Below are positions 2,221 through 18,659 of a stretch of DNA of 42,108 bases, one piece after another. Origin of the DNA: Anaerolinea sp. (GTDB lineage Bacteria > Chloroflexota > Anaerolineae > SpSt-313); NCBI GenBank assembly GCA_020725765.1, contig DYEI01000564.1, forward strand, positions 1-42,108, given 5' to 3'. Numbering within the stretch: the first letter of the stretch is position 1; every line of letters starts with the position of its first letter. The notes under the pieces are model-generated. The model made no database searches. It was not told where the DNA came from and worked only from the letters and a program-made list of their open reading frames with translations. The position numbers and the translations under genes are program-made.

Positions 2221-5200
2221 GTGCAAAAGCCGGTCCTGCTTGAGATCTCCCACGTGGAGGATACCTATCGCTTCCGCCTGGAGCAGCCCGAACCGGGGGC
2301 AGCCGTCCGTCAGTACGCCACGCCCCCCATCTCCAGGGCCGATCAGCAGAGCCTCCGGCGGGCTGTCGAGCAGGCTGCACGCAGCCCCCTGAACCCCTTC
2401 TCGCTCGAGGAGCTTGGGCGACTCATGTACAACCTCCTGCTCCCTGCGGAGATCCAGGACTTCCTCCGCTGCCTCGACGCGCCGCTTCTCATCTCGACTG
2501 ATGCGCCAGAGATACCCTGGGAGCTGTTCTACGAGGAAACAAGCAAGCAGTTCGTCGGGCTCAAGTGTGCAGTCGGCAGGCGCCTCGTCACCGACGCGGC
2601 CGTGTCTCCCCGCGCCGATGCCGCCACGGACACGCCGTTGGCCTTCCTCCTCATCGGCAACCCGCAGGGTGACCTCGACGGCGCGGACCGCGAGATCCAG
2701 TTGCTGAGCGAGCTCATCACGGCCAGTGGCGGCACAGTGCGAACCCTTCTCGGAAGCCGCGCCGGCCTCCTACCGGTTCAACTCGCGCTGCAGAGCGAGC
2801 AGAGCTACCTGGGTATCCACTATGCCGGTCACGCGGATCACGACAAGGCCTCGCGGCAGCACGCCCTGCTCCTTGCCGAGCGCACAAAGCTGACCGCCGA
2901 CGCCATCCGCAAGCTCCTGCGTGGTCAGCCCTTCGTCTTCCTCAACGCCTGTGGCACCGACCAGCCCAGCCAGAGCGGCCGGCGGGCCGCGATCTCGTGG
3001 CAGGTCACCGAGGGGCTGGCTGCCGCCTTTGTCGCCGGGGGCGCCCGGGCGGTCCTCGCCACCCGCTGGGAGGTCGACGACCAGCGCTCCGCCGCGTTCG
3101 CCGCCCACTTTTACGAGGCGGCTCTCCTCGGCGTCCCCATCGGCGAGGCCCTGCGCCGGGCCAGGGTGCGGTGCCGCGAGGAGCAGAGCGACGACTCGAC
3201 CTGGGCCGCCTTCGTCCTCTATGGGGACCCCTGCCAGCCCCTCGTCGACGTGTCTGTCTTTGGTGCCGACGGAGAGCTCCGACGGGCACGCTTCAGCCCG
3301 GATGTCAGCACGGCCCTCGACCTGCTGCCCGGGGAGGCCCAACAGTCGGGGTACGACTTTGTCGGCACGCCGCACCTTTTCATAGCCCTTGCCCGGATCG
3401 AGGGCGGCTGCACCCAGGACGCGCTGCGCCGCCTCGGCCGCCCGCCCCACGAGGTGTGCGAGCGGCTCCGCCGAGATATTCGCCGCGGACGGCCTGCGGC
3501 CAGCGCCCCGAGGCTGGCCAGGCCTTCGCTGTCGGAGCGAGTGCGGCGCATCCTGCAGGCTGCCAGCGACGCGGCCATCGCTGCCGGGTCAAGTCTCATT
3601 GGGGAGCGACACCTCCTCGAGGGATTCCTACGTGAGGCCGACGGCCCCACCGTCGAGAGCCTTCGCCGGCAGGGGATCGATCCAGAGCGCCTCCGCGCCA
3701 TCCTCCACGGTGAGCCGGAGCCCGAAGGTGCGGTAGCCGTTGCCTCGTCCTCTGCCAGGGAGAAGAGGGCAGAGCTCACCTTCGCGCCCGATGCCCAGCA
3801 AGCGTTGACCGTTGCCCTTCAGGAGGCCTGCCGCACGGGCGCCAGCCTGATCGAGACCCCTCACCTCGTCATCGGTTTGACCAAGGTGCCGGGCGGGTAC
3901 ACCGCCGGCGCCCTCGGCCGGCAGGGTTTTGACCCCAAACGCGTTCGGGACGCGATCCGTGCTGCGCTGCGCCCCGCCGGCCCTCCGCGGGAGATGCCCG
4001 CGGCCATCACCCCCGAGCTCCTTGCGCCACGCGTGCAGCAGATCGTCGAGCTTGCCGCAGCCGAGGCGCGCGCGGCCGGTCACACGGCCATCGGCGAGCG
4101 GCACCTGCTGCTTGCCTTCCTCCAAACCGAGGGAAGCGCCACCGCCGAGTTCCTGCGCAGCCTGGGCATCGACCTGAAGGAGATGGCCGCTGCTGTGCGC
4201 CAGAGTCCCGAGGGGCCGCCCCAACCCAGCCCGACCCCGCTCCTCGACCGGCTGGGCCGCGACCTCACGCGCCTGGCTCGTGAGGGGCGCCTGAAGCCGG
4301 TGATCGGCCGCCGGAAGGAGATGGCGCGCATCGCGCAGGTCCTCGCCCGGTCCGACAAGAATACCCCCCTCCTCATCGGCGACGCCGGCGTCGGCAAGAC
4401 GGCCATCGTGGAGGGTCTCGCCCAGCGGATCGCCGATGGCAGGGTGCCGCCACACCTGCAGGGCAAACGCATCGTCGAGCTGCAGGTGGCAGCCCTCGTC
4501 GCCGGCACCAAGTACCGCGGCGAGCTTGAGGAGCGCCTGGCACAGGTCCTGCGCGAGGCGACCCAGCCGGACGTCATCCTCTTTCTCGACGAGATTCACA
4601 CCCTCGTCGGCGCCGGCCGCGGAGAGGGGACGACCCTTGACGCCGGCAACATCTTCAAGCCCGCGCTAGCCCGAGGCGAGATCCGCTGCATCGGCGCCAC
4701 AACCCTCGCCGAGTTCCGCAAGACAATCGAGAAGGACGCCGCCCTTGAGCGGCGCTTCCAGCGCATCATGGTCGAGGAGCCCAGCCCCGGCGAGACTCTG
4801 GAGATCCTCCAGCAGACCCGCTCCCGCTACGAGAGCCACCACGGCGTGCGTCTCCTCGATGAGGCTCTCGAGGCCGCCGTCCGCATGTCTGTGGCCTACC
4901 TGCCCGACCGTCACCTCCCGGACAAGGCTTGCGACCTGATCGACGAGGCGTGCGTCCGCCTCCGCGTCGGGTCGGCCAGCCAGTGGCCGTCGGAGGCGCC
5001 CGGTGCCGAGTCGCCCGTCGTCGACGCCGAAGCCGTTGCCCGGGTCGTCGCAGAGTGGACCGGCATCCCCGTCGGGCGCCTGACCGAGCCCGAGCAGGAG
5101 CGGCTCCTCGGGCTCGAGGAGCTGCTCGGCCAGCGGGTCGTGGGTCAGGACGAGGCGGTGACCGCAGTGGCCGAAGCGGTGCGCCAGGCCCGGGCGGGAC

Positions 5201-6012
5201 TCAAGCGCCCCCGGCGCCCCGTGGGGGTCTTTCTCTTCGTTGGCCCGACCGGCGTCGGCAAGACGGAGCTGGCCAGGGCCCTCGCCGAGGTGCTGTTCGG
5301 CTCACCGGAGGAGCTGATCCGCCTGGACATGTCGGAGTACCAGGAGCCGCATAGCGTGTCCAGGCTCGTGGGCGCTCCGCCAGGCTATGTCGGCTACGGC
5401 GAGGGCGGGCAGCTCACCGGCGCCCTGCGCCGCAAGCCCTACGCCGTGGTGCTGATGGACGAGATCGAGAAAGCGCACCCCAACGTCTTCGACCTCTTCC
5501 TCCAACTCTTCGACGAGGGGCACCTGACCGACTCACAGGGCCGTACAGCGAACGGGCGCAATGCCATATTCATTCTCACCTGCAACGTCGCCTCGGACGT
5601 CGTGCGGCGCCATACGATGGGCTTTGGCCGCGATAACCCCGAAACAGCACGTCAGGATGTCATGGATCGGCTGCGGCAGACCTTCCGGCCCGAGTTCCTG
5701 AATCGGCTGGATGAGGTCGTCGTTTTCCGTCCCCTCAGCCCGGAGCACGTGCGGGCCATCGCGCACCGCCACGCCGCGGAGCTCTCGGCGCGCCTGCAGG
5801 CGAGCCACGGCGTCACCCTGCAGGTAGGGGAGGAGGCCCTCGACCTGATCTGCCGCGCCGGGTACAGCGAGATGTACGGTGCCCGCCACCTGCAGCGCGC
5901 CTTCGAGCAGATGCTGACCAGGCCGCTGAGCACTCTCCTGCTGACGGGGCGCCGCGGCACCATCGTCGCCCGTGCTGAGGGAGACCGGGTGACACTTTCC
6001 TGGGAGGGATAG
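2221..6012 (+). CDS. CHAT caspase-like peptidase fused to a two-ring Clp/Hsp100 AAA+ unfoldase
   Basis: The 1263-residue protein has three parts. Residues 1-345 are a CHAT domain with its usual N-terminal extension and an intact dyad: His204 in HYAGH and Cys244 in NACGT. Residues about 355-495 and 517-660 are two Clp N-domains. From about 668 come two AAA+ modules. The first has Walker A 720-727 (GDAGVGKT) and Walker B D790/E791. The second has Walker A 1008-1015 (GPTGVGKT) and Walker B D1080/E1081. Only some 25 residues separate the modules where ClpB has its long coiled-coil middle domain, so this is not a ClpB disaggregase. An M-G-F tripeptide at 1133-1135 sits where ClpC/ClpA carry the ClpP-docking loop. 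Both rings look catalytically intact. The simplest reading is an unfoldase that controls, or feeds substrates to, its own CHAT peptidase. No clpP is in the window. Confidence 0.9.
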
Positions 6013-6020
6013 GCGAAGCC

Positions 6021-7502
6021 ATGCCTCTCAAGCCGGAAGACAGGCTGCTCAAGCGCTTCCATATTGCATCCGTGCTGGGCCAGGGGGCCTTTGGGTGCAC
6101 CTACCTGGCCTTCGACCAGCGCCTGCGCAGGCCCGTGGCCATCAAAGAGCTTCTGAGCCAGCACCTCGCCGACCAGAGCGCCCGCGAGCGCTTTGTCAAC
6201 GAGGCGCGCGTCATGGGCCAGCTCGCGCACCCCAACATCGTCACCGTCTACGACCTGATCGAGGCCGACCCGGCCCAGCGCCTCGATGCCTACTACATCA
6301 TTATGGAGTACCTCGACGGTGGCTCACTCGAGCACGCCATCCGCGAGGGCATGACCATTGAGCGGGCCATCGCAGTCGCCGTAGCGGTCTGTGCCGCCCT
6401 TGCCCGTGCGCACCAGCACGGCATCATCCACAGGGATATCAAGCCCGCCAACGTCCTCCTCAGCAAGGACGGTAACCTCATCAAGCTCGGCGACTTTGGT
6501 ATTGCCCACCTGCCCGATGTGCACCAGACCGTCGGCGGTCATCCGGGGACGCTTGTCTACATGTCCCCCGAGCAGACGCGGAGCGGCCCCCAGGCCAGGC
6601 TCGATGGGCGCTCTGACCTGTACAGCACCGGCGCCATGCTCTACGAGATGCTCACCGGGCGCCTCTACCTGGACTTTTCCCGCTACGTCCGCCAGGCCAG
6701 CCTGGACTTTTTCGGTGCCAAAGGCCTGCCCCATGGGGCGGACCTCAGCCCCTTCCTCAAGCTCGAGCTCGAGATGGCGATCCAGCACGCAGTCTCCCAG
6801 GCCGTGAGTGAAGTAGCGCCGGAGGACCCCCGCCGACACAACCCGAACATACCTGCTTCTCTGGCCGAGGCGGTGCTCAAAGCGCTGGCCAAGGATCCCG
6901 GCGAGCGCTATGCCAGCGCCGAAGAGATGATCGAGGCCCTGCGGGCGATCAAGACCCGCAGGCTCGGGCAGACAACCACACCAGGGCGCCCGTCGCTCGA
7001 GCAGCACCTCGACGACCTGTTTGCCCGCTCCCGGGCCGCGACCGAGCGCGGTGAGCTGAGCGCAGCCCTCGAGCTCCTCGCGCAGGCTCACGACCTCGCC
7101 CCCGATAACCCCCGCGTCCATTGCGAGCTCGGCCTCCTCCAGGTCAGGCGCGGCGACTATCGCACCGCAGCCGAGCACTGGAAGGAGGTCATCGCCCTCG
7201 ACCGAACCTATGCCCGCGCCTACCTGGAGCTCGCCCGCTGCTACAACCAGCTCGAGCTGTACGCGCGGGCCATTGAGGTGCAGGAAGAGGCCCTGCGTGC
7301 GGGCCTCGCCAGGAACGACGCCACCTTCTACGACTGCCTGTCGATGGCCTACTGGATGGCCAACCGGCCTGAAGAAGCGATCTGGGCCCTGGAGAAGGCC
7401 ATCCAACTCGAGGATAGCCCCAAACGCCGCGCGCTCCTGCGGCAGTGGCGGCGCAAGACCGGCGGGACGTCGCGCACGCACTCGAGGGAGGACACCCGGT
7501 GA
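6021..7502 (+). CDS. Ser/Thr protein kinase with C-terminal TPRs
   Basis: A 493-residue PKN2-type kinase. The domain spans about 12-310 and is complete: glycine loop GQGAFG (20-25), Lys42, Glu61, HRD 137-139 with Asn144, DFG 158-160, and a GTLVYMSPEQ activation segment. Residues about 340-480 hold TPR helices. There is no membrane segment, so it is cytoplasmic, unlike many bacterial kinases with exported sensors. It starts 8 nt after the unfoldase stop, with GGGAGGG as ribosome site, which suggests co-translation. It likely phosphorylates operon partners, with the TPRs choosing the targets; the substrate is unknown. Confidence 0.92.
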   Translation: MPLKPEDRLLKRFHIASVLGQGAFGCTYLAFDQRLRRPVAIKELLSQHLADQSARERFVNEARVMGQLAHPNIVTVYDLIEADPAQRLDAYYIIMEYLDGGSLEHAIREGMTIERAIAVAVAVCAALARAHQHGIIHRDIKPANVLLSKDGNLIKLGDFGIAHLPDVHQTVGGHPGTLVYMSPEQTRSGPQARLDGRSDLYSTGAMLYEMLTGRLYLDFSRYVRQASLDFFGAKGLPHGADLSPFLKLELEMAIQHAVSQAVSEVAPEDPRRHNPNIPASLAEAVLKALAKDPGERYASAEEMIEALRAIKTRRLGQTTTPGRPSLEQHLDDLFARSRAATERGELSAALELLAQAHDLAPDNPRVHCELGLLQVRRGDYRTAAEHWKEVIALDRTYARAYLELARCYNQLELYARAIEVQEEALRAGLARNDATFYDCLSMAYWMANRPEEAIWALEKAIQLEDSPKRRALLRQWRRKTGGTSRTHSREDTR

Positions 7503-8857
7503 ACGGACGCAAGCTGTCGCTCGCTGCGTTGGCTGCCTGGTTTGGCTTGTGGGCGGCCGCGGCGGCGCTTGCCGCCCGGCTGGCCGCCAGCAGGTACCCG
7601 CCGCTCATTCCCGTATGTCTGCTCCTCGCCATGGCCAACGCTGCAGCGGCTGCCGGCCTCGCCGGGTACCGAAAGTGGGGTCGTTGGGTCGCCACCGCCC
7701 TCGCCGGTCTGGGCCTGGCGGTCCCCCTTCTGGGAACGTTGGTCAATGCTGCGATCCTGTGGTTGCTCTGGCGCAAGGAGATCACCGCGGCCCTCAATGA
7801 GGCCGAGGCGGAGCGCCGGGCCCGCCTGCCCTGGCTGCGCGAGTATCGGGCTGAGACGCGCCTGTGCCTCGCGGCAATCGTCGTGCTCGCCATGCTCGAC
7901 CTGGTGCTGTGGGCCCGGTATACAGCCAGCGCCGGAGCTCCGCGCACCGCTCGTACGCTCCCGGCGGCAACCGTCAGCAAGTCCCGCGTGCCCACCCGTG
8001 TGCCACCCACGCGCACTCCGCAGCCCACCCGCGTGCTCGCGACACTCCCTCCCAAGCCGACGCAAGCGCCTCAGCTAACGCGCGCACCCGCCGCCGCAGC
8101 CACAGTGACTCCCGATCGCAAGCCTGCTTCCCCACTCGACGGCTCCGCGTTGCTCAGCGACGACTTTTCAGGCCCGGTGTGTCTGGCGACCTTGAGCAAC
8201 GATAAGGGCGAGATGGGCTGCGAGGATGGCGAGTTCAGCATGCTGACTGAACCGGCCGGTCTGATCCACAAGGCTGTGTACGATCTCGCGGTCACGAGCT
8301 ACACCCTCGAGGCAGACGCCCGCGTGGTCGATGGTCCCGACCAGTGCTGTTACGGCCTCGTTTTCGGCTGGCAAGTGCCCGATGACTTTTACTACTTCTG
8401 GGTTTCCGCCGACGGGTACTACGCCCTTCAGAGACGCTCCGGTGGCCAATGGCAGATTGTCGTTCCCCTCGAAGCCTCAACCCATATCCGGCGGGGCAAG
8501 GCTGCCAACCATGTACGGATAGAGGTAGATAGGGGGAAGGTCACACTTTCGGTCAACGGCCACGAGCTGGCCACCGTCGCCCAGACCACTCAGGCGACGA
8601 CCGGCAGGGTAGGCCTTGCCTCGGGAACCTGCTTGATGGAGACAGGCGTGCACGTGCACTTTGACAACGTGCAGGTGTACAGCCTGCCGGCGGCCACGTC
8701 GCTTGAGCCGGCCGCCGCGCCCCGCAAAGCTCCGGCCAGCCTCTCATCGGGCGCGCACGGCATTGCCAATCGCGCTGGCCTGGCCCGGGATGACACTCCC
8801 CTCCGCCTGGCAGGTGAGCGCTTGGAGATGGCCTTCTATGTGGGCCCGGAAGCGTGA
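7499..8857 (+). CDS. Four-helix membrane protein with an exported LamG/DUF1080-like beta-sandwich
   Basis: GTG 7499 overlaps the kinase stop by 4 nt and has GGGAGG 7 nt upstream; an earlier in-frame start at 7445 has no ribosome site. The 452-residue product has hydrophobic segments at about 7-27, 33-52, 58-83 and 120-138. A Pro/Thr-rich linker follows (about 145-210), typical of extracellular spacers. Residues about 225-400 form a beta-rich domain (LLSDDFSG opening, NHVRIEVDRGKVTLSVNG core) like concanavalin/LamG or 3-keto-glycoside hydrolase-type folds. I see no clear catalytic set, so it may bind glycan. It probably presents a sensor or anchor outside the membrane for the cytoplasmic machinery. 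Confidence 0.75.
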   Translation: MNGRKLSLAALAAWFGLWAAAAALAARLAASRYPPLIPVCLLLAMANAAAAAGLAGYRKWGRWVATALAGLGLAVPLLGTLVNAAILWLLWRKEITAALNEAEAERRARLPWLREYRAETRLCLAAIVVLAMLDLVLWARYTASAGAPRTARTLPAATVSKSRVPTRVPPTRTPQPTRVLATLPPKPTQAPQLTRAPAAAATVTPDRKPASPLDGSALLSDDFSGPVCLATLSNDKGEMGCEDGEFSMLTEPAGLIHKAVYDLAVTSYTLEADARVVDGPDQCCYGLVFGWQVPDDFYYFWVSADGYYALQRRSGGQWQIVVPLEASTHIRRGKAANHVRIEVDRGKVTLSVNGHELATVAQTTQATTGRVGLASGTCLMETGVHVHFDNVQVYSLPAATSLEPAAAPRKAPASLSSGAHGIANRAGLARDDTPLRLAGERLEMAFYVGPEA

Positions 8858-8894: not shown

Positions 8895-11800
8895 ATGAGC
8901 ACCGTTGGGACTGAGGCCAAGGCGGTCTCCAGACGCCACAGAACCTACCGCGCCATGGCGCAGACTGCGGCGCTTATGGCTGGGATCGGGGTCTACGGAG
9001 CGGCACGGTCCGTAGCCACGGCCGCTGTGACCGCCGTCCTGGCCTATATCGCCGGCGTCGAGCTGGCCAGCGTCCTCAGCCGTCGGCGGCGGGCGCTCCC
9101 GCTCTTGTGCTGGCTGTCTGCCGTGGCGGTCTTCCTCGCCTGCCTGGCCGCAGAGGTGGTCGTGCTCACCACCCTTCAGGTCCGCCCGGGATCGCTCGTC
9201 CTGCCCCTCGCCCTCGCCTCGTCCGGGGCTGCCGGATGGCTGGCCCATCGGGGCTTACGACACCTGGCCTGCCGGCGTGCCCCCTGGCTACCGTTCGAGG
9301 ACCAGATCCACGCCACCATCATCGCTCCCGGCAGGCTCACGCCTGCCGAGGTGGCGATCCGACTGCAATGGCTGCGGCTCCGGCGCGCGTCGGCCCTGAT
9401 CCCCGCCTATCGTCAGGCCCTGGAGCAGGCCCGCCGCACGCCGGCGGTTGCCAGTGCCGTCTACCGGGCCCTCGTGGAGGACCTGGCAGAAGTTGAGGGG
9501 CTGACGGCGGACCTGAGGCAGGTCCTGGGCCAGGCCTACCTGGGCCTGGGCGAGCTGGCACTGCAGCAGAACAGGCCGGCGGAGGCTCTGGCCCGCTTCC
9601 TCGAAGCCCAGAGATGGATCGCCCTGCCCCGCGCCGCCCTGCAGCACCTGGCGGGGTATTATGTCGAGCGCCAGGATGCCTCCGAGGAGGCGATTCACGC
9701 CTACCTGGCCTACCTCGAAGCGCGCCGACAGGAGCCCGCGGACCAGACCGCAGTCGCCTGCCGCAACCTCCTGAGGAGCCTGGTCCAGATCGACGAGGGT
9801 GCGAGCCGCTCCACCGCCGAAGGCGCTGCCGCTCTTGCCCGGCGCATCATCGGGGCGGACCCGACGACAGACTGGGCCCACTACTACCTGGGCGTCAGCC
9901 TGTACCTGCTGGGCGAGTATGGATACGCGGCCGAGGCCCTCGAGCGCGCGGCGGCGCTGAACCCCTCTCACGCCATGTCCGGCGTCTTTCTTGGCCGCAC
10001 CCGCCTGGAGCGCGGCGAGGTGGCAGCGGCACTCGACGCCTTCCGCCGGGCCCTTGCCGCCGACCCTGCCTGCCAGCCGGCCCTCTACTGGCTTGGCCGG
10101 GCCCTCGTCGGCGAGGCTGAGACGCGTGCCGACACCGCCCTCGCACAGGAGGCCGTAGCCCTTCTGCAGCAGGCACACGGCCTGGCACCAGCGCAGGCGG
10201 AGGTGCTCTACTACCTGGGCCGGGCCCATGCGCTCACCGGCGCCAACGACGAGGCCGCCCGTGCCCTGGAGGGGGCCATCTCCCTCGATGCCAGCCAGGC
10301 GCCGTATCACTACCGGCTCGCCCTGGTCCAGGAGGCTCTGGGGTTGCCTCGGGCGGCGATGGTGTCGCTCGAGCGCTCCCTTGCCCTCGACCCCCAGCAA
10401 GCCGCCGCGTGGCAGCTCCTCGGCGACCTGAGCCTGGCCGCGGGCGACTATGCGCACGCCGAGGCCAGCTACACGCAGGCCCTCGCCCTCCTGCCTGCGG
10501 ACGCGCACGCCCGCGAGGGGCTTGGCCGGAGCCTCTTCTATCAGGGCCGCTACGTTGAGGCCATCACGCAGCTCACCGGGGCGAGCCCACTGGGCCGGGA
10601 GGGCCTCTATGCGCTGGGCCGCGCCCAGGCGCTCACGGGCGATATGGTCGCTGCCTGTGCGAGCTATGAGCAGCATCTGGGAAGGTTCGGGCCCGACGCC
10701 GACGTCTCCTACTACCTCGGCTGCGCCCGTGCCCACCGGGGGGACTGGCCCGGAGCACTGGCAGCTCTCGACCAGGCCGCTACGCTCGCCCCAGAGCGGG
10801 CCGATATCCTGCTCCAGAGAGGCAACGTCCGCCTGCTGCAGGGCGAGCTGGCGCTGGCCAGGGAGGATCTGACCCACGCCCGCGCCCGGGCCCCGGAGAG
10901 TGCTGCAATCGCCTACGCCCTGGGCGTGTGCCTCGCGCGCCTCGGAGATGAAGGTGCAGCCACGGCCGAGCTGGAGCGGGCGGTAGAGCTCGATCCCTCC
11001 CATGCTGCGGCGCACCTCGGCCTCGGGCTCGCGCTCGAGCGGCGCAGGGAGCACGCCCGTGCTGCCGAGGCCTACCGGCAGGCGCTGGCCGCTGGCGCTA
11101 ACCCGGCGCAGTTGCACCTGCGCCTCGGAGCAGTCACCGCTCGGCTCGGCGAGGCTGCGACCGCACTCGAGCACCTACTGGAAGCCCGGCGTCTGGGGGT
11201 CGAGGGAGACGAGCTGCGCTATCACCTTGGCTTCGCCCTCGCAACCCTCGGCCGCCATGAGGAGGCCATCGCGGAGTGGGAGGCGCTCCTCGAGACGCAC
11301 CCCGACGACCGCGCCCTCGCCCTCGATATCGCCCGCTCCCAGTACCTGCTCGGCTGCCAGCACTTCGAGGCGGGCGCTTACGAGCAATCGATCGCCGCCT
11401 GGGGCCGCTGTCAGGACATCTGGGGCGACGATCCATCGCTGGTCGCCGGCCTGGCCGAGGCCTGGTTCCGCCTGGGCGTTGAGAGCCTGGCCCGCGGAGA
11501 GCGAGAGATGGGCCGAGCATCGCTGCAGCGCTCTTTGTCGCTCGGCCAGGATGCAGAGCGCGTCCACTACTACCTTGGCCTCGGCGCCCTCGCCGCCGAG
11601 GAGTGGGGCACCGCCCTGGAGGAGCTCGCGCCGCTGGCGCAGGCACACCCGGAGGGCGCCCGCTACCAGTACCACCTGGGCCTGGCCTTGCTCAACGCGG
11701 GCAGGCCCGAGGAGGCGGTGCCCGTGCTCCAGCAGGCCCTGGCCGGGGAGGGATCGGCCGAGTACGCCCTGGGAGCCCAACTGGCCCTGGCCGGGGCTCA

Positions 11801-11933
11801 CGTCCGGGCCGCGCGCTGGGCCGAGGCCGCCGCGCTCTACCGCGCCGTGCTGACCGGAGAGAGTCCGCCACGGGCGGACCGCAAGGCTGCTGCCCGTCAG
11901 ACAGAGCCTGACGAGGCCGCGGAGGACGCATGA
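8895..11933 (+). CDS. Large membrane-anchored TPR scaffold protein
   Basis: A 1012-residue protein. Four hydrophobic segments lie in the first 120 residues or so (about 20-40, 41-60, 68-95, 98-118). From about residue 175 to the end it is built almost entirely of TPR-type helix pairs, with recurring YYLG, ALGRA and A-x-YRQAL patterns, on the order of twenty repeats. There is no catalytic motif. GGTAGGAG precedes the ATG by 6 nt. TPR arrays are protein-docking solenoids, so this is probably the membrane platform that gathers the chaperone, kinase and peptidase parts. The stop overlaps the next start (ATGA). Confidence 0.85.
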   Translation: MSTVGTEAKAVSRRHRTYRAMAQTAALMAGIGVYGAARSVATAAVTAVLAYIAGVELASVLSRRRRALPLLCWLSAVAVFLACLAAEVVVLTTLQVRPGSLVLPLALASSGAAGWLAHRGLRHLACRRAPWLPFEDQIHATIIAPGRLTPAEVAIRLQWLRLRRASALIPAYRQALEQARRTPAVASAVYRALVEDLAEVEGLTADLRQVLGQAYLGLGELALQQNRPAEALARFLEAQRWIALPRAALQHLAGYYVERQDASEEAIHAYLAYLEARRQEPADQTAVACRNLLRSLVQIDEGASRSTAEGAAALARRIIGADPTTDWAHYYLGVSLYLLGEYGYAAEALERAAALNPSHAMSGVFLGRTRLERGEVAAALDAFRRALAADPACQPALYWLGRALVGEAETRADTALAQEAVALLQQAHGLAPAQAEVLYYLGRAHALTGANDEAARALEGAISLDASQAPYHYRLALVQEALGLPRAAMVSLERSLALDPQQAAAWQLLGDLSLAAGDYAHAEASYTQALALLPADAHAREGLGRSLFYQGRYVEAITQLTGASPLGREGLYALGRAQALTGDMVAACASYEQHLGRFGPDADVSYYLGCARAHRGDWPGALAALDQAATLAPERADILLQRGNVRLLQGELALAREDLTHARARAPESAAIAYALGVCLARLGDEGAATAELERAVELDPSHAAAHLGLGLALERRREHARAAEAYRQALAAGANPAQLHLRLGAVTARLGEAATALEHLLEARRLGVEGDELRYHLGFALATLGRHEEAIAEWEALLETHPDDRALALDIARSQYLLGCQHFEAGAYEQSIAAWGRCQDIWGDDPSLVAGLAEAWFRLGVESLARGEREMGRASLQRSLSLGQDAERVHYYLGLGALAAEEWGTALEELAPLAQAHPEGARYQYHLGLALLNAGRPEEAVPVLQQALAGEGSAEYALGAQLALAGAHVRAARWAEAAALYRAVLTGESPPRADRKAAARQTEPDEAAEDA

Positions 11934-14900
11934 GGAGCATTGGCATCCACTTCGGCGAACACAACCTCGTCATGGCTGGGGCTCCGAATGGCAAGCCCCG
12001 GGTCATCCCCAACCGCGAGGGCGAGACGCACACGCCATCAGCCGTGGCCATCGGCCCGATCGGCGAGTTGCTCGTGGGCAGGACCGCCTGCGAGCGGAGC
12101 GCCTCGGTGCCCGACAGCGCCGTCTCCAACCTCAGGGGCCTGCTGGCGCGCCAGGAGGCAGTGCTGCTGGAAGGCCGGCCCTTCACGCCAGCTGAGCTGG
12201 CGGGCCTGCTCCTGTGCAGGCAGAGAGAGGACGCGGAGAGCCTCTTTGGCGAGCCGGTCCGCAGTGCCGTCCTCACCGTGCCCGGGATCTACCCGGCGGA
12301 AGGCGCAGCAGCCCTCGAGGCAGCGGCCTGCCTCGCCGGCCTTTCGGCGCTGCAGCTCATCCCCGAGCCGATTGCCGCCTGCCTGGCCTACAGGTCGGCG
12401 TTTGGCGGACGCGAGACCGTGCTCGTCTATCACCTGACAAGCGCCGGAGTGGCGGCCTCGGTCCTGCGGCATGCGGATGGGGCGATCCGGCTGCTGGCCC
12501 ATGCCGACTCGTCGGTCCTGAGCGGCGACGCGATGACCGACGCCCTGCTCGAGCTCCTGACTGAGGTCATCGGCACCATGCCCCTGGGCGGTTCCGACGA
12601 CCAGGAGGCCGCCCGCAGGGCCTCGCTCCGCCGGATCGCCGAGGAGGTCAAGATCCACTTCAGCGCGCCGCGCTCCGGAAGCGGAATGTCGACGCCCATC
12701 GATCCGGATTCCGGCTATCTCGGCGAGGTCTCTGCCGAGCAGTACGAGGCGCGCATCCGCCCCATGGTCGAGGAAAGCATCGCCCTCGCCCGCAAGGTGA
12801 TCGGCCTGGCCGGGCTTACCCCGGATGCGATCGACTGGGTGATCCCCGTCGGCGCTGCCACGCGGACGCCCCTTGTCGGTCGCGCCCTCGCCGGCGTGAG
12901 TCGCCGTGAGAGGCTGCTGACGAGCATCGACCCCAGCTGCTGCCTCGCCCTGGGCGCCGCCGCCCATGCCGCGCTCCTTGTGCAAGAGGCCGCCAGGCCA
13001 CTGTGGCATGCCCGCCTGTGCGGTGTGCTGGGGCACCGGGTGTCGAACCTGAAATCGCAGGCGCAGGCAGCGGCAGCTACCGTCCCTGAGGTTGTTGACC
13101 GCTGCTCCCACGAGGGCTGCGAGGCCCCGGCCACCTGCCGCTGCGACATCTGCGGGCGCCCGTGCTGCTCGCGGCACGGCGCCGGCGGACGCTGTGTGGA
13201 TTGCCTCGCCACTCTCACGGCCGCGATGGTCGGCTGTTACGAGAAGATGGGGCGTCTGCACGAGGCCGCGACGGCGCTGGAGGGGCTGGCCATCCATCCT
13301 GCCCGTTACCATCTCGGCCGCATCCGCGCTCTCGAGGGGCAGCTCGAGTCAGCCCTGGTCGAGCTGGAGTCGGCCCTGACCGCCTCTCCCGTTGCCGACG
13401 ACGCGCGCCGGGCGACGGCACGTGTCCTCTCGGCCCGCGCCGCGCAGCACGCGGCGGCGGGCGAACACGTCGCTGCCGCCGATGACCTGCGCCGCGCTCT
13501 GGAGCTCGACCCCAGCCTCCCCGGGATACGGCGATACCTGACCATCCTCGAGAATCTGAGCGCCTTTGCCTACATCCAGCGCGGAGAGCCCGGCCGCGCT
13601 CTCGCCGCCTGGGAAGAAGAGCAGCAACGGTCGCCGGATAGCTATCGCCTTGCCCACAACCTGGCCATCCTCTACTACCGCCTGGCCTGCGAGCGCGAGG
13701 AGGCCGGCGACCCGGCCGCCGATGAGGCGTGGCGCAAGGCCATCGCCCACTGGACGCTGGTCGCGCACACACCGGCCTTTTGGGAGGAGTGGCTCGCGGA
13801 GCGGGCGGCCTGCGTGGGCGATATCCCCGAGTCGGCGGCCGAAGAGCTGCAGCGGCACCTTCTGAGCTCGCTGCGCTCGGACCTGCAGGAATACCACAGC
13901 CGATATCTCCAGGCTGGCCGCCCCGCTGACGCGGCAAGGCATCGCGAGTACCAGGTCCTGCTCGCGCTCGAGTGTCGGGCCGCGGCGGTGCTCCGCGCCG
14001 TGCTCGAGGCCACAGGTCACGATCGAGCCGGGCAGGATGTGCCCTTCTGCTGCGGGCCGCTCATGCTGGGCTATCTCGAGCGCTCCGCCAGGGGCCGCCA
14101 GATCGTGGACGGGATCAGGGCGTTCTGTGCCCGGGTGCGCGCGGGCGATGGCTCCGAGGCCCTGCAGGCGAGCGTACGGGCCACCCTCGCCGCCCAGAGG
14201 GACGCGCAGCCTCCGGACGTCTACCTCTTCTCGCCTCTCGGCCGCATCCACATCCTGCTCGAGGAGAGTTGGGTCGACCAGGCAATTGCCGAGCTCGAGC
14301 GACTGCTTGCGGCGGCTCCGGGCAACCAGGAGGCGACCTCGCTCATCGTCGCAGCCCTCGCCCGCAAGGGGGAGGACCTCATCGGGGCCGAGCAGTACGA
14401 GGACGCCCTCAGGGTGCTGGAGCGTGCACTGGGGTACGGGCGCGACGCGGAGGCGGTTCGCCGCCTCATCTCAGCCGCCTGCACCAGGCGTGCGCACCAG
14501 CTCTCGCAGGAGAAGCGCGTCGAGCAGGCCATCGCCGTGCTCGAGCGAGGCCTGTACCTCGCCCCACAGGATGCCGAGATCAAGAGCAACCTCTGCGCCT
14601 GCTACTGTGAGCAAGGCCGCCTGCTCAACAACGATGACAAGTACGAGGCGGCCATCAAGATGCTCGAGCGAGCGCTCCAGGTCGATAGCGAGAGCGCTCA
14701 GGCACGCCATATCCTGCAGGTCGCGCTGCTCAACCGGGCAGCGCAGATAGCGAGCGGGAGCAGCTACCGCCGATACGATCAGGCGCTGCGGCTGGTAGAG
14801 CGGGCAATGGAGCTAGGGGACCTCTCTCCGGACCACCGCCGCTTCGTCGCCCACCTCTACAACCAGCGCGGCGTCGAGAGCTGGAATAGTGGCAACCGCT

Positions 14901-15052
14901 TTGCAGCGCGAGGTGACTTTGAGCAGGCGTACAGGCTTGACCCGGCAAACCCCGTCATCCGACAGAACCTCATCAACGCCGGGGGCGTTCCCAGCCTGGA
15001 CGGAGCGACCCTCCAGGACATCCTTCGGAACCTTCAGCAGAAGCGCCACTGA
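11930..15052 (+). CDS. Degenerate Hsp70 ATPase domain fused to a zinc cluster and TPRs
   Basis: The first 345 residues or so (of 1040) align with an Hsp70/DnaK nucleotide-binding domain, but nucleotide-contacting residues are lost. The phosphate-1 loop reads GIHFGEHN (His7 for the Asp; Glu and His for the two Thr). The phosphate-2 loop reads VYHLTSAG in place of DLGGGT. The Lys70 equivalent appears to be Arg. IPEPIAACLAY and GAATRTPLV remain, so the fold is probably kept. Residues 392-425 hold a dense Cys/His cluster (B-box-like), then TPR helices run to the end. There is no substrate-binding domain. It overlaps the TPR gene by 4 nt. It is likely a pseudo-ATPase adaptor, perhaps dimerising with or titrating the active Hsp70 at 16218. 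Confidence 0.85.
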   Translation: MRSIGIHFGEHNLVMAGAPNGKPRVIPNREGETHTPSAVAIGPIGELLVGRTACERSASVPDSAVSNLRGLLARQEAVLLEGRPFTPAELAGLLLCRQREDAESLFGEPVRSAVLTVPGIYPAEGAAALEAAACLAGLSALQLIPEPIAACLAYRSAFGGRETVLVYHLTSAGVAASVLRHADGAIRLLAHADSSVLSGDAMTDALLELLTEVIGTMPLGGSDDQEAARRASLRRIAEEVKIHFSAPRSGSGMSTPIDPDSGYLGEVSAEQYEARIRPMVEESIALARKVIGLAGLTPDAIDWVIPVGAATRTPLVGRALAGVSRRERLLTSIDPSCCLALGAAAHAALLVQEAARPLWHARLCGVLGHRVSNLKSQAQAAAATVPEVVDRCSHEGCEAPATCRCDICGRPCCSRHGAGGRCVDCLATLTAAMVGCYEKMGRLHEAATALEGLAIHPARYHLGRIRALEGQLESALVELESALTASPVADDARRATARVLSARAAQHAAAGEHVAAADDLRRALELDPSLPGIRRYLTILENLSAFAYIQRGEPGRALAAWEEEQQRSPDSYRLAHNLAILYYRLACEREEAGDPAADEAWRKAIAHWTLVAHTPAFWEEWLAERAACVGDIPESAAEELQRHLLSSLRSDLQEYHSRYLQAGRPADAARHREYQVLLALECRAAAVLRAVLEATGHDRAGQDVPFCCGPLMLGYLERSARGRQIVDGIRAFCARVRAGDGSEALQASVRATLAAQRDAQPPDVYLFSPLGRIHILLEESWVDQAIAELERLLAAAPGNQEATSLIVAALARKGEDLIGAEQYEDALRVLERALGYGRDAEAVRRLISAACTRRAHQLSQEKRVEQAIAVLERGLYLAPQDAEIKSNLCACYCEQGRLLNNDDKYEAAIKMLERALQVDSESAQARHILQVALLNRAAQIASGSSYRRYDQALRLVERAMELGDLSPDHRRFVAHLYNQRGVESWNSGNRFAARGDFEQAYRLDPANPVIRQNLINAGGVPSLDGATLQDILRNLQQKRH

Positions 15053-15072: not shown

Positions 15073-15492
15073 ATGCCCTATCCAAAAGAATCGCCCTACG
15101 ACCTCCTGGAGATCTCGCCCACGGCGACGGCGCGCGATATCGTCGCCGCCTATCCCAGGGCCCTGGCGGCAAAGCGCCAGCGCGCCAGCGAGGTGCAGCA
15201 CGCCTTCAACGAGTTGCGAAACCCCAGGCGACGCCTCGAGCACGACCTCCTGCTCTTCTGCAGCCTCGGGGGCAGCGCCGATGTGGAGCAGTTCTCCAGC
15301 GACTATGGGCGCGTCAGCCTGCCGACCCTCACGGCAGAGCCGGTGCCTGTCGGCCCGGCCCTCACCGATCTGGCCATGGGCCGGTACAGGCGCGACTATC
15401 GGCACCCGCCGCGCCGGAAGGTCAGGCTCACGGCAAGAGCACGGTACGCGAACCCCGCCTGGGACCTGTTGCCGGTAATGCTGGATCGATAG
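15073..15492 (+). CDS. J-domain-like protein lacking the HPD motif
   Basis: Of 139 residues, about 7-60 resemble a J domain: SPYDLLEIS opening, helix II (ATARDIVAAY), and a helix III/IV region with HAFNELRNPRRRLEHD. The loop that should carry His-Pro-Asp is shortened and the motif is absent, so ordinary stimulation of Hsp70 ATPase is not expected. The rest is basic and unclassified. A GGAG site lies before ATG 15073. Its place between the pseudo-Hsp70 and the GrpE-like gene supports a co-chaperone origin. It could be a J-like docking module. Confidence 0.7.
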   Translation: MPYPKESPYDLLEISPTATARDIVAAYPRALAAKRQRASEVQHAFNELRNPRRRLEHDLLLFCSLGGSADVEQFSSDYGRVSLPTLTAEPVPVGPALTDLAMGRYRRDYRHPPRRKVRLTARARYANPAWDLLPVMLDR

Positions 15493-15586: not shown

Positions 15587-16069
15587 ATGGACGAGCCACA
15601 GCCACTGCTGGACGATCCCTGGGCTACCCTCCCCGAGGTCCTCGCCGCCGATCCGGCCGCCGCCATGGTCCAGCTAATGCGCCGCTGCGGCCGGCTCGAG
15701 AGCCGCCTCGAGGAGAGCGAGCGCACCGCCCACGACACGGCTCGGAGCCTGCTGCGTGCGCTCCTCGACATCGTCGACGACCTCGATCGCATCCTGACGC
15801 AACAGCCGGTGCGCAGCGTTGAGCTCGTGCGCAAAAAGCTCCTTCGGCTGCTGGAGAGGCAGGGCGTGACCGCTATCGGGGTGCTTGGTCAGCCCTTCGA
15901 CCCCGCACTCGCGGAAGCCACCGGGGAGGAGGAGCGTGACGATCTCCCCGACGAGACCGTCATTCAGGAGGTCGTCACCGGGTACCGCTGGCGCGGCGAG
16001 GTGCTCCGCCCCGCCGTCGTCATCGTCAGCAGGCGCGCAGCTGCCGCCGCAATCGATGCGCCGCAATGA
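15587..16069 (+). CDS. grpE: GrpE-like nucleotide exchange factor
   Basis: The 160-residue protein has a central helix (about 28-90) and then the GrpE beta-domain signature: GVTAIGVLGQPFDPALAEA, DETVIQEVVTGYRW, LRPAVVIVSR. The usual His-Glu after FDP is Ala-Glu. GrpE dimers release ADP from Hsp70, so the partner is most likely the intact Hsp70 148 nt downstream. The N-terminal helix is shorter than in E. coli GrpE. AGGAG occurs upstream but rather far from ATG 15587, so the exact start is less sure. This is probably a specialised paralogue; a housekeeping grpE would be expected elsewhere. Confidence 0.85.
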   Translation: MDEPQPLLDDPWATLPEVLAADPAAAMVQLMRRCGRLESRLEESERTAHDTARSLLRALLDIVDDLDRILTQQPVRSVELVRKKLLRLLERQGVTAIGVLGQPFDPALAEATGEEERDDLPDETVIQEVVTGYRWRGEVLRPAVVIVSRRAAAAAIDAPQ

Positions 16070-16217: not shown

Positions 16218-18659
16218 ATGACACGCTCCATCGGCATCGACTTTGGCACCTGCAACTCGGCCATGGCGTACATGCACCGTGGCGAGCCCCGGGTCATCCT
16301 CAACCTGCAGAATATGGATGTGACGCCCTCGGCCGTCAGCCTCGGCAAGCGCGGCGAGCTGCTGGTCGGCAAAGAGGCGCGAAACCGGGCCATCCTCGAG
16401 CCTGAGAACACCATCCTCTCCATCAAACGCAAGATCGGCTCCGACGAGCGCATCACCTTCAACGGCCGGACCTACACCCCTACCGAGATCGCCGCCCTCA
16501 TCCTCCGCAAGATGAAGAGGGATGCCGAGCTGCGCCTCGGCGAGCCGGTCGGCAGGGCGGTGATCACGGTACCCGCTTACTACGGCGAGCGCGCCGCCGC
16601 GGCAACCCGCGAGGCCGGGCGCCTTGCCGGGTTCACCGTCCTGCGCATGATCAACGAGCCGATGGCCGCCTCGCTCGCCTACGGCCTCGACCGCGCGCCC
16701 GAGGCTGCCAAAACCATCCTCGTCTACGACCTCGGCGCCGGCACCTTCGACATCTCCATCGTCATGCTCGTGCAGGGGGCCTTCGCCGTCATGGGCCACC
16801 TCGGCGACACTCACCTCGGCGGCGACGACTTTGACCAGCTGATCATGGACTACCTGCTCGGCCTCGTCCGCACCGAGCATGGCGTCGACCTCAGCCAGGA
16901 CCGCCGGGCCCTGCAAAAGCTGCGCGCTGCTGCCGAGGAAGCCAAGATCACCCTCTCCAGCCAGTCCTACGCCGAAATAGTCCTCCCTGCCATCGCCCCG
17001 GGCGTTGACCTCGAGACAGAGCTCAGCCGCAGCGAGTACGAGGGGTGGATCCGCCCCTTTGTGGAGCGCACCGTCGAGCTCGTGCGCCAGGCCATACACG
17101 AAGCCGATATGGCCCTCGACATGGTCGACCATATGCTCCTCGTCGGCGGGCCGACCTACACGCCGCTGGTGCAGGGCGTGCTGGAGTCGCTGGTAGGCCG
17201 GGAGCGGCTGCTCCGTCGGGTGAACCCGATGCTCTGCGTGGCCATGGGCGCCGCCATACAGACAGGGCTCGTCACCGAGATCGACTGCCCCAACCCCAAG
17301 TGCAACCAGAAGAACCCCATCGATGCCGAGGTCTGCTCCGCCTGCGGCCGCTCGCTCGTTGGCGACCAGAAGGTCGATTGCCCGGCCTGCTTCATGCCCA
17401 ACGACATCGACCGTCGCTCCTGCTGGAAGTGCGGCACCACACTGGCCGGCGCAACTCCGCCCCGGCGGGCGGCAGCAGCCACATGGACCTGCCAGGAGTG
17501 CGGCAAGCCCAACCCGAGCGACCTCGCAGCGTGTAGCGTCTGCCAGGCGCCCCGTGACCGCGGCGGCCTGCGCTGCCCGAGTCCAGAGTGCGGCTATGTG
17601 AACGAGCCCGGCGCCCGCAGTTGCGCCCGCTGCGGGGCCGACCTGGTTCGCGACGTCCTCGACGTCACCGCCAAAGACCTCGGTGTCGAGCTGCACGATG
17701 GGCGTATGTCCGCGATCATCCCCAAAGGCACCGGCTTCCCAACCGCCAGGCCCACCACCAGGGTCTACTACACCGTCGCCGACAGTCAGCGGCAGCTCGA
17801 GGTCGCCATCTATGAGGGCGAGAACCCCCAGGCCAACCGCAACGACTACTGCGGCGTCGTCGCCATGGACCTGCCGCCCGGGCTTCCCAAGGGCACTCCG
17901 GTCGCCATATCCTTCGACCTCGACGCCAGCCGCACCATCTACGTCACCGTCCAGCTCCAGGATGGCTCCGGCAGGCAGGTGCAGGCGCGCATCCGCCGCA
18001 CCACCATGCCGGCCGACATGAGGAAAGAGCTGGAGCAGATGCAGCGGCAGGCGGAAAAGCTGCTCGAAGAGGCACAGGAGGCCCTCGACGACGCCGACCG
18101 GAGGAACCTCGAAAGCCTCCGCAGCGAAGTCGCCGAGGCGATGGACTCGGGCGACTCGGCCCGGGCCGAACAGGCCCTTCCCGGCTGGAAGGAGTGCCTC
18201 GCCGCTGCCCAGCGCAAGGCCGACACGCTCGACGAGATCCAGCACGTGCTCGCCCGCGCCTCGTGGGTGGTCGGGGTCGTGCGGGAGTACATGGAGAAGG
18301 AAAAGGCCGACGCCATCGCCCGCATGGTCGCCGAGGTCGAGGCCGCCCTCGGCAAGCGTCGGGTCGAGGAGGCCGCGCAAAAGGCCCGTGCGCTGAGCCA
18401 GTACATGGACGGTCTCGGCGGCGCCATCAACCTCATCACCTACTGCCAGTACGCCTCCGCCCATCCCAGCGTGCCGCCTGCGCTGCAGAGCCGCCTCGCC
18501 GGCGCTCTCGCCGAGCTCAAGCGGGCCTTTCAGTCCAACAACCGGCAGCTCCTGGAGCGAAAGATCGGCGAGCTCGGCCAACTGCTGGATGAGGCCGCCC
18601 GGTACCTGAACGTCAGGCCCGAGGATATGGCCTCGGGCATCACCGACACCAAGCACTGA
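16218..18659 (+). CDS. Hsp70 (DnaK-like) with four zinc ribbons inserted between ATPase and substrate domains
   Basis: An 813-residue Hsp70 with an intact ATPase: GIDFGTCNS (Asp8), Lys70 in SIKRKIG, phosphate-2 DLGAGT (171-176), INEPMAASLAYG and LVGGPTYTPLV. Residues 357-472 contain four successive double-CxxC/CxxxxC zinc ribbons, a feature normal DnaK lacks. After them a DVLDVT linker leads into a substrate-binding beta domain (about 480-595), with a long helical lid to the end. AAAGGAG precedes ATG 16218. The ribbons may bind nucleic acid, or a partner such as the zinc-ribbon LysM protein next door. This is the one apparently active Hsp70 of the locus, served by the GrpE-like and perhaps the J-like protein. 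Confidence 0.92.
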   Translation: MTRSIGIDFGTCNSAMAYMHRGEPRVILNLQNMDVTPSAVSLGKRGELLVGKEARNRAILEPENTILSIKRKIGSDERITFNGRTYTPTEIAALILRKMKRDAELRLGEPVGRAVITVPAYYGERAAAATREAGRLAGFTVLRMINEPMAASLAYGLDRAPEAAKTILVYDLGAGTFDISIVMLVQGAFAVMGHLGDTHLGGDDFDQLIMDYLLGLVRTEHGVDLSQDRRALQKLRAAAEEAKITLSSQSYAEIVLPAIAPGVDLETELSRSEYEGWIRPFVERTVELVRQAIHEADMALDMVDHMLLVGGPTYTPLVQGVLESLVGRERLLRRVNPMLCVAMGAAIQTGLVTEIDCPNPKCNQKNPIDAEVCSACGRSLVGDQKVDCPACFMPNDIDRRSCWKCGTTLAGATPPRRAAAATWTCQECGKPNPSDLAACSVCQAPRDRGGLRCPSPECGYVNEPGARSCARCGADLVRDVLDVTAKDLGVELHDGRMSAIIPKGTGFPTARPTTRVYYTVADSQRQLEVAIYEGENPQANRNDYCGVVAMDLPPGLPKGTPVAISFDLDASRTIYVTVQLQDGSGRQVQARIRRTTMPADMRKELEQMQRQAEKLLEEAQEALDDADRRNLESLRSEVAEAMDSGDSARAEQALPGWKECLAAAQRKADTLDEIQHVLARASWVVGVVREYMEKEKADAIARMVAEVEAALGKRRVEEAAQKARALSQYMDGLGGAINLITYCQYASAHPSVPPALQSRLAGALAELKRAFQSNNRQLLERKIGELGQLLDEAARYLNVRPEDMASGITDTKH

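Follow-up and report, generated by a model that had tools for sequence, protein, structure and literature searches.

What is a caspase-like peptidase doing at the head of a two-ring protein-unfolding motor, and which protein would it cut there? The question is raised by a gene of Anaerolinea sp. lying in a window of 42,108 nucleotides, the whole of the DNA stretch analysed here, in which all features named below are on the forward (+) strand. The gene (2221-6012) codes for a protein of 1263 residues, CHAT-Clp, made from its N- to its C-terminus of a CHAT domain, two Clp N-domains and the rings D1 and D2. The reading frame is present in the window (2203/2221-6012), and it likely starts at the GTG at 2221, because the Shine-Dalgarno motif GGAGG (2208-2212) and the onset of the conserved protein coincide in a relative from the same genus, an Anaerolineae bacterium with 89% identity (L001/L135, relative R hereafter). 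Pfam matches the protein to CHAT (E 2.7e-32), to four stretches of Clp_N and to AAA, AAA_lid_9, AAA_2 and ClpB_D2-small. An earlier note on this DNA had placed the gene at 2221-6012, numbered the putative catalytic residues His204 and Cys244 and seen that one chain unites a protease head with a two-ring motor; coordinates and numbering are correct, and Pfam matches and motifs bear out the layout. The same note proposed that the motor might feed the CHAT domain directly, and it is here that our reading departs from it. As argued below, CHAT-Clp may be the protease part of a cytosolic sigma/anti-sigma switch, with a ClpC-type ring replacing the usual TPR; we give this reading a probability of roughly 0.4. 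It is proposed because the dyad and the two-ring motor are intact, because genes for a sigma factor and for a zinc-binding anti-sigma-like protein, ZAS-beta, are adjacent, and because this pair is recurrently linked to CHAT.

The head itself looks competent. The CHAT domain (2410-3228, residues 64-336) carries the CHAT dyad, His204 in the motif YAGHAD (2830-2832) and Cys244 in LNACGT (2950-2952), and both residues are unchanged in an alignment of six sequences that includes four more distant CHAT proteins, which upholds the view that the dyad is intact. Comparison with relative R shows purifying selection, with dN/dS of 0.11 for CHAT, 0.07 for D1 and 0.12 for D2; the constraint on CHAT is therefore about as strong as that on the motor. 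With the dyad kept and dN/dS at this value, CHAT is not a relic in this genus, as far as its sequence tells. A scan of viral contigs to deepen the alignment found no CHAT relatives there. An AlphaFold2 model of residues 64-1263 gave pLDDT below 50 for the CHAT part, and a model of CHAT alone, built from two sequences, was discarded at pLDDT 42. In the same model of residues 64-1263, both N-domains, D1 and D2 are confident (pLDDT mostly 75-95).

The motor is of the ClpC/ClpA kind. The four Clp_N repeats make up two N-domains, the first (3289-3720, residues about 357-500) holding two of them and modelled with pLDDT 75-90, the second (3781-4197, residues about 521-659) being a feature, like the sigma and anti-sigma genes upstream, that the earlier note did not mention. 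Both Walker sets are intact in the alignment, as had been claimed: GDAGVGKT (4378-4401) and DE (4588-4593) in D1, GPTGVGKT (5242-5265) and DE (5458-5463) in D2; so are the pore loops KYR and GYVG. The tripeptide M-G-F (5617-5625, residues 1133-1135), proposed from the sequence to lie where ClpC and ClpA bind ClpP, does align with VGF/LGF of ClpC and IGL of ClpA, at a position where ClpB has no such tripeptide. Between D1 and D2 the junction (4915-5073) is 53 residues long, compared with 45 in Escherichia coli ClpA, about 102 in ClpC and about 165 in ClpB, and therefore leaves no M domain; the AlphaFold2 model has no coiled coil there. The absence of a middle domain thus stands, but the comparison with ClpB, from which a lost DnaK contact had been drawn, does not. 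ClpB is the wrong yardstick, because the loop and the best structural matches of the model, ClpC-ClpP complexes, point to ClpC, because ClpA is likewise without an M domain, and because the same genome encodes an ordinary ClpB (C245a) as well as two ClpC and a ClpP. That ClpB is this genome's ClpB for work with Hsp70; the missing M domain tells little about Hsp70, and CHAT-Clp is not a stripped ClpB. It shares with ClpB/Hsp104 a two-ring Hsp100 motor while differing from them in its missing M domain and its ClpP-type tripeptide.

Two AAA+ modules, Clp_N and a hydrophobic-G-[FL] loop would, from sequence, place the protein in class I of the Hsp100 family. It resembles ClpC and ClpA in its N-domain, two AAA+ rings, pore loops and hydrophobic-G-F/L tripeptide, but has an N-terminal CHAT domain and a duplicated N-domain, and neither the short M domain of ClpC (about 100 residues between D1 and D2), the long one of ClpB, nor a position among ClpC in the motor tree. 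There, CHAT-Clp and related M-less unfoldases form a clade of their own (100/99), outside the sampled ClpC and ClpB rows, within which the CHAT-Clp rows and one truncated sequence group together (95/89). Loss of the M domain is not a unique trait of the fusion, since M-less Clp proteins without CHAT occur in 16 of 244 cyanobacterial genomes. Contiguous motor matches in cyanobacteria (L168-L177) lie in reading frames of some 700-840 residues without CHAT, and those that were aligned are M-less. A ClpC-like protein of Nonomuraea (L072, 9881-12226) is without the ClpP tripeptide loop, and plasmid records yielded ordinary Clp proteins only. Our searches of the open-access literature found no paper with both CHAT and Clp, and a structure search with the AlphaFold2 model found no solved structure uniting them.

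A second lineage tells more about what the motor needs. A search of the class with the N-terminal 520 residues had suggested that the fusion was confined to one genus; this was overturned when the whole protein was searched against 400 Chloroflexota genomes, revealing M-less matches in reading frames of about 1200 residues in one other family of the phylum (f76, genomes of about 3-14 Mb), which may, at a guess, belong to the Ktedonobacterales. These proteins align with CHAT-Clp from the first residue and are the same fusion, with one Clp N-domain instead of two, the second being the one that is missing, and a CHAT domain still matched by Pfam (E 5e-22). A single clade for the fusions is not rejected (p-AU 0.34), and the CHAT tree gives no resolution. 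None of the 26 f76 copies that were read has kept the dyad: P, V or A stands in place of His, and Y, H or T in place of Cys. All four of their Walker motifs, A and B in each ring, are perfect. To judge from these motifs, the fusion motor is kept there in the absence of CHAT catalysis, and hence does not need it; no other single finding speaks as strongly against a motor that feeds CHAT. Active-looking CHAT-Clp is, as judged from sequence, known from one genus only.

The loss of the dyad also favours another reading, in which the CHAT head serves chiefly for recognition or as an adaptor, and a ClpA/ClpC-like unfoldase delivers its substrates to ClpP by means of the MGF loop; CHAT catalysis would then only make an initial cut or be a relic. 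This fits the 26 dyad-less fusions that keep the CHAT fold and all their Walker motifs, the alignment of the MGF loop with ClpC and ClpA, the presence of ClpP in the genome and, on the strength of the model, the structural match to ClpC-ClpP complexes. We nevertheless hold it doubtful for the window protein, whose dyad is conserved in the genus under a CHAT dN/dS about as low as that of the motor; and in most f76 copies the tripeptide is S-G-F, not hydrophobic-G-F, which makes the link to ClpP questionable even there.

The feature most telling of function, overlooked in the earlier note, lies just upstream of the fusion: a sigma/anti-sigma pair that recurs with CHAT genes. An ECF sigma factor is encoded by two separate reading frames, region 2 at 233-853 (Pfam Sigma70_r2, 4e-7) and region 4 at 859-1128 (Sigma70_r4, 3e-8). 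The stop of the first, the Shine-Dalgarno motif GAGGAGG (842-848) and the ATG of the second are conserved in both species (233-1128 in the window, 147-1093 in relative R), which makes the pair a candidate two-subunit ECF sigma factor. The ZAS-beta gene follows (1192-2097), directly upstream of CHAT-Clp; its product of 301 residues has two Hx3Cx2C motifs and a beta-rich C-terminal part, and no Pfam match. Sigma, ZAS-beta and CHAT-Clp adjoin in the window and in relative R alike. About 10 nucleotides before the sigma ATG, the upstream regions of the two species share a conserved stretch (195-235) with TTGACC-17-TACAAT (195-223), which, on comparison by eye with the sigma-70 consensus, appears to be a housekeeping-type promoter and would yield a nearly leaderless mRNA. 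That the operon is driven by an ECF box of its own found no support, the conserved motif looking housekeeping-type; autoregulation by the operon's own sigma factor is therefore not visible.

Downstream of CHAT-Clp the operon continues. A Ser/Thr protein kinase with TPR (6021-7502, Pfam) is followed by a probable membrane protein with a weak, sub-threshold ConA-like match (7445-8857), a TPR protein with N-terminal hydrophobic segments (8895-11933, Pfam scan and sequence) and an Hsp70 ATPase-domain protein fused to TPR (11930-15052, Pfam). Then come a probable, degenerate J-domain-like protein without HPD or Pfam match, recognised from its sequence (15073-15492), GrpE (15587-16069, Pfam 4e-23) and an Hsp70 with zinc ribbons (16218-18659, Pfam 1e-124). 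The J-domain-like gene thus lies between two Hsp70 genes, and the Hsp70s noticed in the operon at first reading are confirmed by Pfam. In another family of the phylum, one run of genes (L158, 2821-16000) brings together a Clp that lacks both the M domain and CHAT, an ECF sigma factor, FHA, a JAB-like gene (identified by eye), a J-like protein and an Hsp70.

The trio of sigma, ZAS-beta and CHAT is not peculiar to this genus. Homologues of ZAS-beta lie beside sigma and CHAT, in the same order, at two further loci, whose related sigma factors are single chains, unlike the split one of the window, and whose CHAT domains have the dyad motifs. At the first (L121, genome G115), where a Uma2-type gene stands between sigma and ZAS-beta, CHAT is joined to a membrane segment, its gene being broken off by the contig end; at the second (L125, genome G198), sigma and ZAS-beta are followed in the same order by a CHAT-STAND-TPR protein. 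We then searched the class with a ZAS-beta profile and read 16 of the best-covered loci (L205-L220), all from genomes of the same class and all without any Clp. At every one of the 16, ZAS-beta has a sigma gene as well as a CHAT gene within a few kilobases; since the profile was built from CHAT-linked loci, these are not a blind sample. Chance would place CHAT nearby in 0.3 of 16, the genomes carrying 1-16 CHAT genes each. CHAT is on the opposite strand at many of these loci, a pattern search detected both dyad motifs at 13 of them, and all seven CHAT neighbours scanned are TPR-CHAT proteins. Gene order, motifs, conservation and co-occurrence are here directly seen: CHAT is what stays constant beside the sigma/anti-sigma pair, and its fusion partner changes (TPR, STAND-TPR, membrane segment or Clp). 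Because all 16 ZAS-beta loci have CHAT and the seven scanned are TPR-CHAT, CHAT-Clp probably takes the place of TPR-CHAT in this switch. Around the f76 fusions, ZAS-beta was found at none of the 11 loci with flanks, so that a fusion without ZAS-beta coincides with loss of the dyad, a correlation between two lineages only, which phylogeny alone could therefore produce.

The varying partner of CHAT brings up a further explanation, namely that the Clp ring serves as a scaffold for ATP-dependent oligomerisation and activates CHAT by clustering, translocation being secondary. STAND ATPases activate caspase-like domains in just this way, and a CHAT-STAND-TPR protein does occupy the same slot at L125. 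CHAT is also switched allosterically in Csx29 (PMC10028731). Yet a mere scaffold would have no need of the two pore loops and the ClpP tripeptide, all of which are intact, nor would the motor sites be expected to persist in the 26 copies that have no working CHAT, and we consider this explanation quite unlikely. The least probable is a self-contained processive protease in which the ring threads unfolded chains straight into the CHAT heads after the manner of FtsH or Lon: protease and motor do share one chain, but CHAT precedes the N-domains, on the entry side, whereas Clp motors pull towards D2 and ClpP (PMC9663308, PMC7707817), Csx29 makes a single cut and is not processive (PMC10028731), and the motor outlives a working CHAT in f76.

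The geometry deserves to be spelled out. In Clp machines, the N-domains and D1 receive adaptors and substrates, while ClpP is bound at D2, by way of the tripeptide loops (PMC9663308, PMC7707817); a head that precedes the N-domains therefore sits at the entrance, and direct feeding of CHAT by the motor is unlikely for that reason. The other option of the earlier note, use of ClpP with CHAT as a trigger, may hold, given the MGF loop and the ClpP gene of the genome. AAA+ motor and protease are on one chain in FtsH and Lon too. Their protease, however, is C-terminal, at the exit, while that of CHAT-Clp is N-terminal.

How, then, might a protease-controlled sigma switch with a Clp ring work? Six subunits would assemble into a ring whose entry face bears the CHAT heads, each held by two N-domains. 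The ring would recognise or pull a substrate, which may be ZAS-beta, the anti-sigma factor, or else a misfolded protein that serves as the signal. The CHAT heads would make a limited cut in ZAS-beta, and the ring would unfold the remnant off the sigma factor, perhaps passing this remnant on to ClpP by way of the MGF loop; the sigma factor would thereby be freed. The Hsp70, GrpE, J-like and kinase genes of the operon may serve the same protein-quality task. In this scheme we infer the substrate, the order of events, the use of ClpP and the signal. A more specific version, which we regard as unlikely, makes the Clp ring the sensor: an unfolded protein would engage the ring, CHAT would then cut the zinc anti-sigma factor and the two-piece sigma factor would be set free.

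The choice of ZAS-beta as target draws on known systems. CASP-sigma is inhibited by Csx30, which the TPR-CHAT protein Csx29 cuts once (PMC10028731), and the occurrence of CHAT near ECF54 sigma factors led to the proposal of proteolytic control (PMC8999054); by analogy with both, CHAT would most likely act on ZAS-beta. The CASP/Craspase locus of type III-E CRISPR resembles ours in encoding a CHAT protease, an ECF sigma factor and a candidate inhibitor together (PMC10028731), whereas in CHAT-Clp a Clp motor stands instead of TPR, and the candidate inhibitor is ZAS-beta; no Cas7-11 effector was found among the operon reading frames scanned. The likeness to ECF54 loci is one of gene neighbourhood, ECF sigma genes lying near CHAT genes (PMC8999054), but ECF54 has been described without an anti-sigma factor, while the window locus has an anti-sigma-like gene. 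The set of sigma, ZAS-beta and CHAT may, again by analogy, be a relative of the Csx29/Csx30/CASP-sigma circuit that lacks CRISPR.

If this reading is right, CHAT-Clp would be a CHAT-sigma switch with an unfoldase where TPR usually stands, and a caspase-like protease at the entry side of an unfoldase is a layout unlike that of FtsH, Lon or ClpP complexes. Family f76 would offer a natural experiment, 26 copies in which the motor is kept while the protease, judged by its lost dyad, is dead. The conserved set of sigma, ZAS-beta and CHAT names a testable candidate substrate. Should the sensor version be true, these bacteria would possess an alarm for proteotoxic stress in which an unfoldase reads damaged proteins directly. 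Beyond this genus, the gene set suggests that the CRISPR Csx29-sigma circuit may be one member of a wider range of protease-controlled sigma switches that do without CRISPR.
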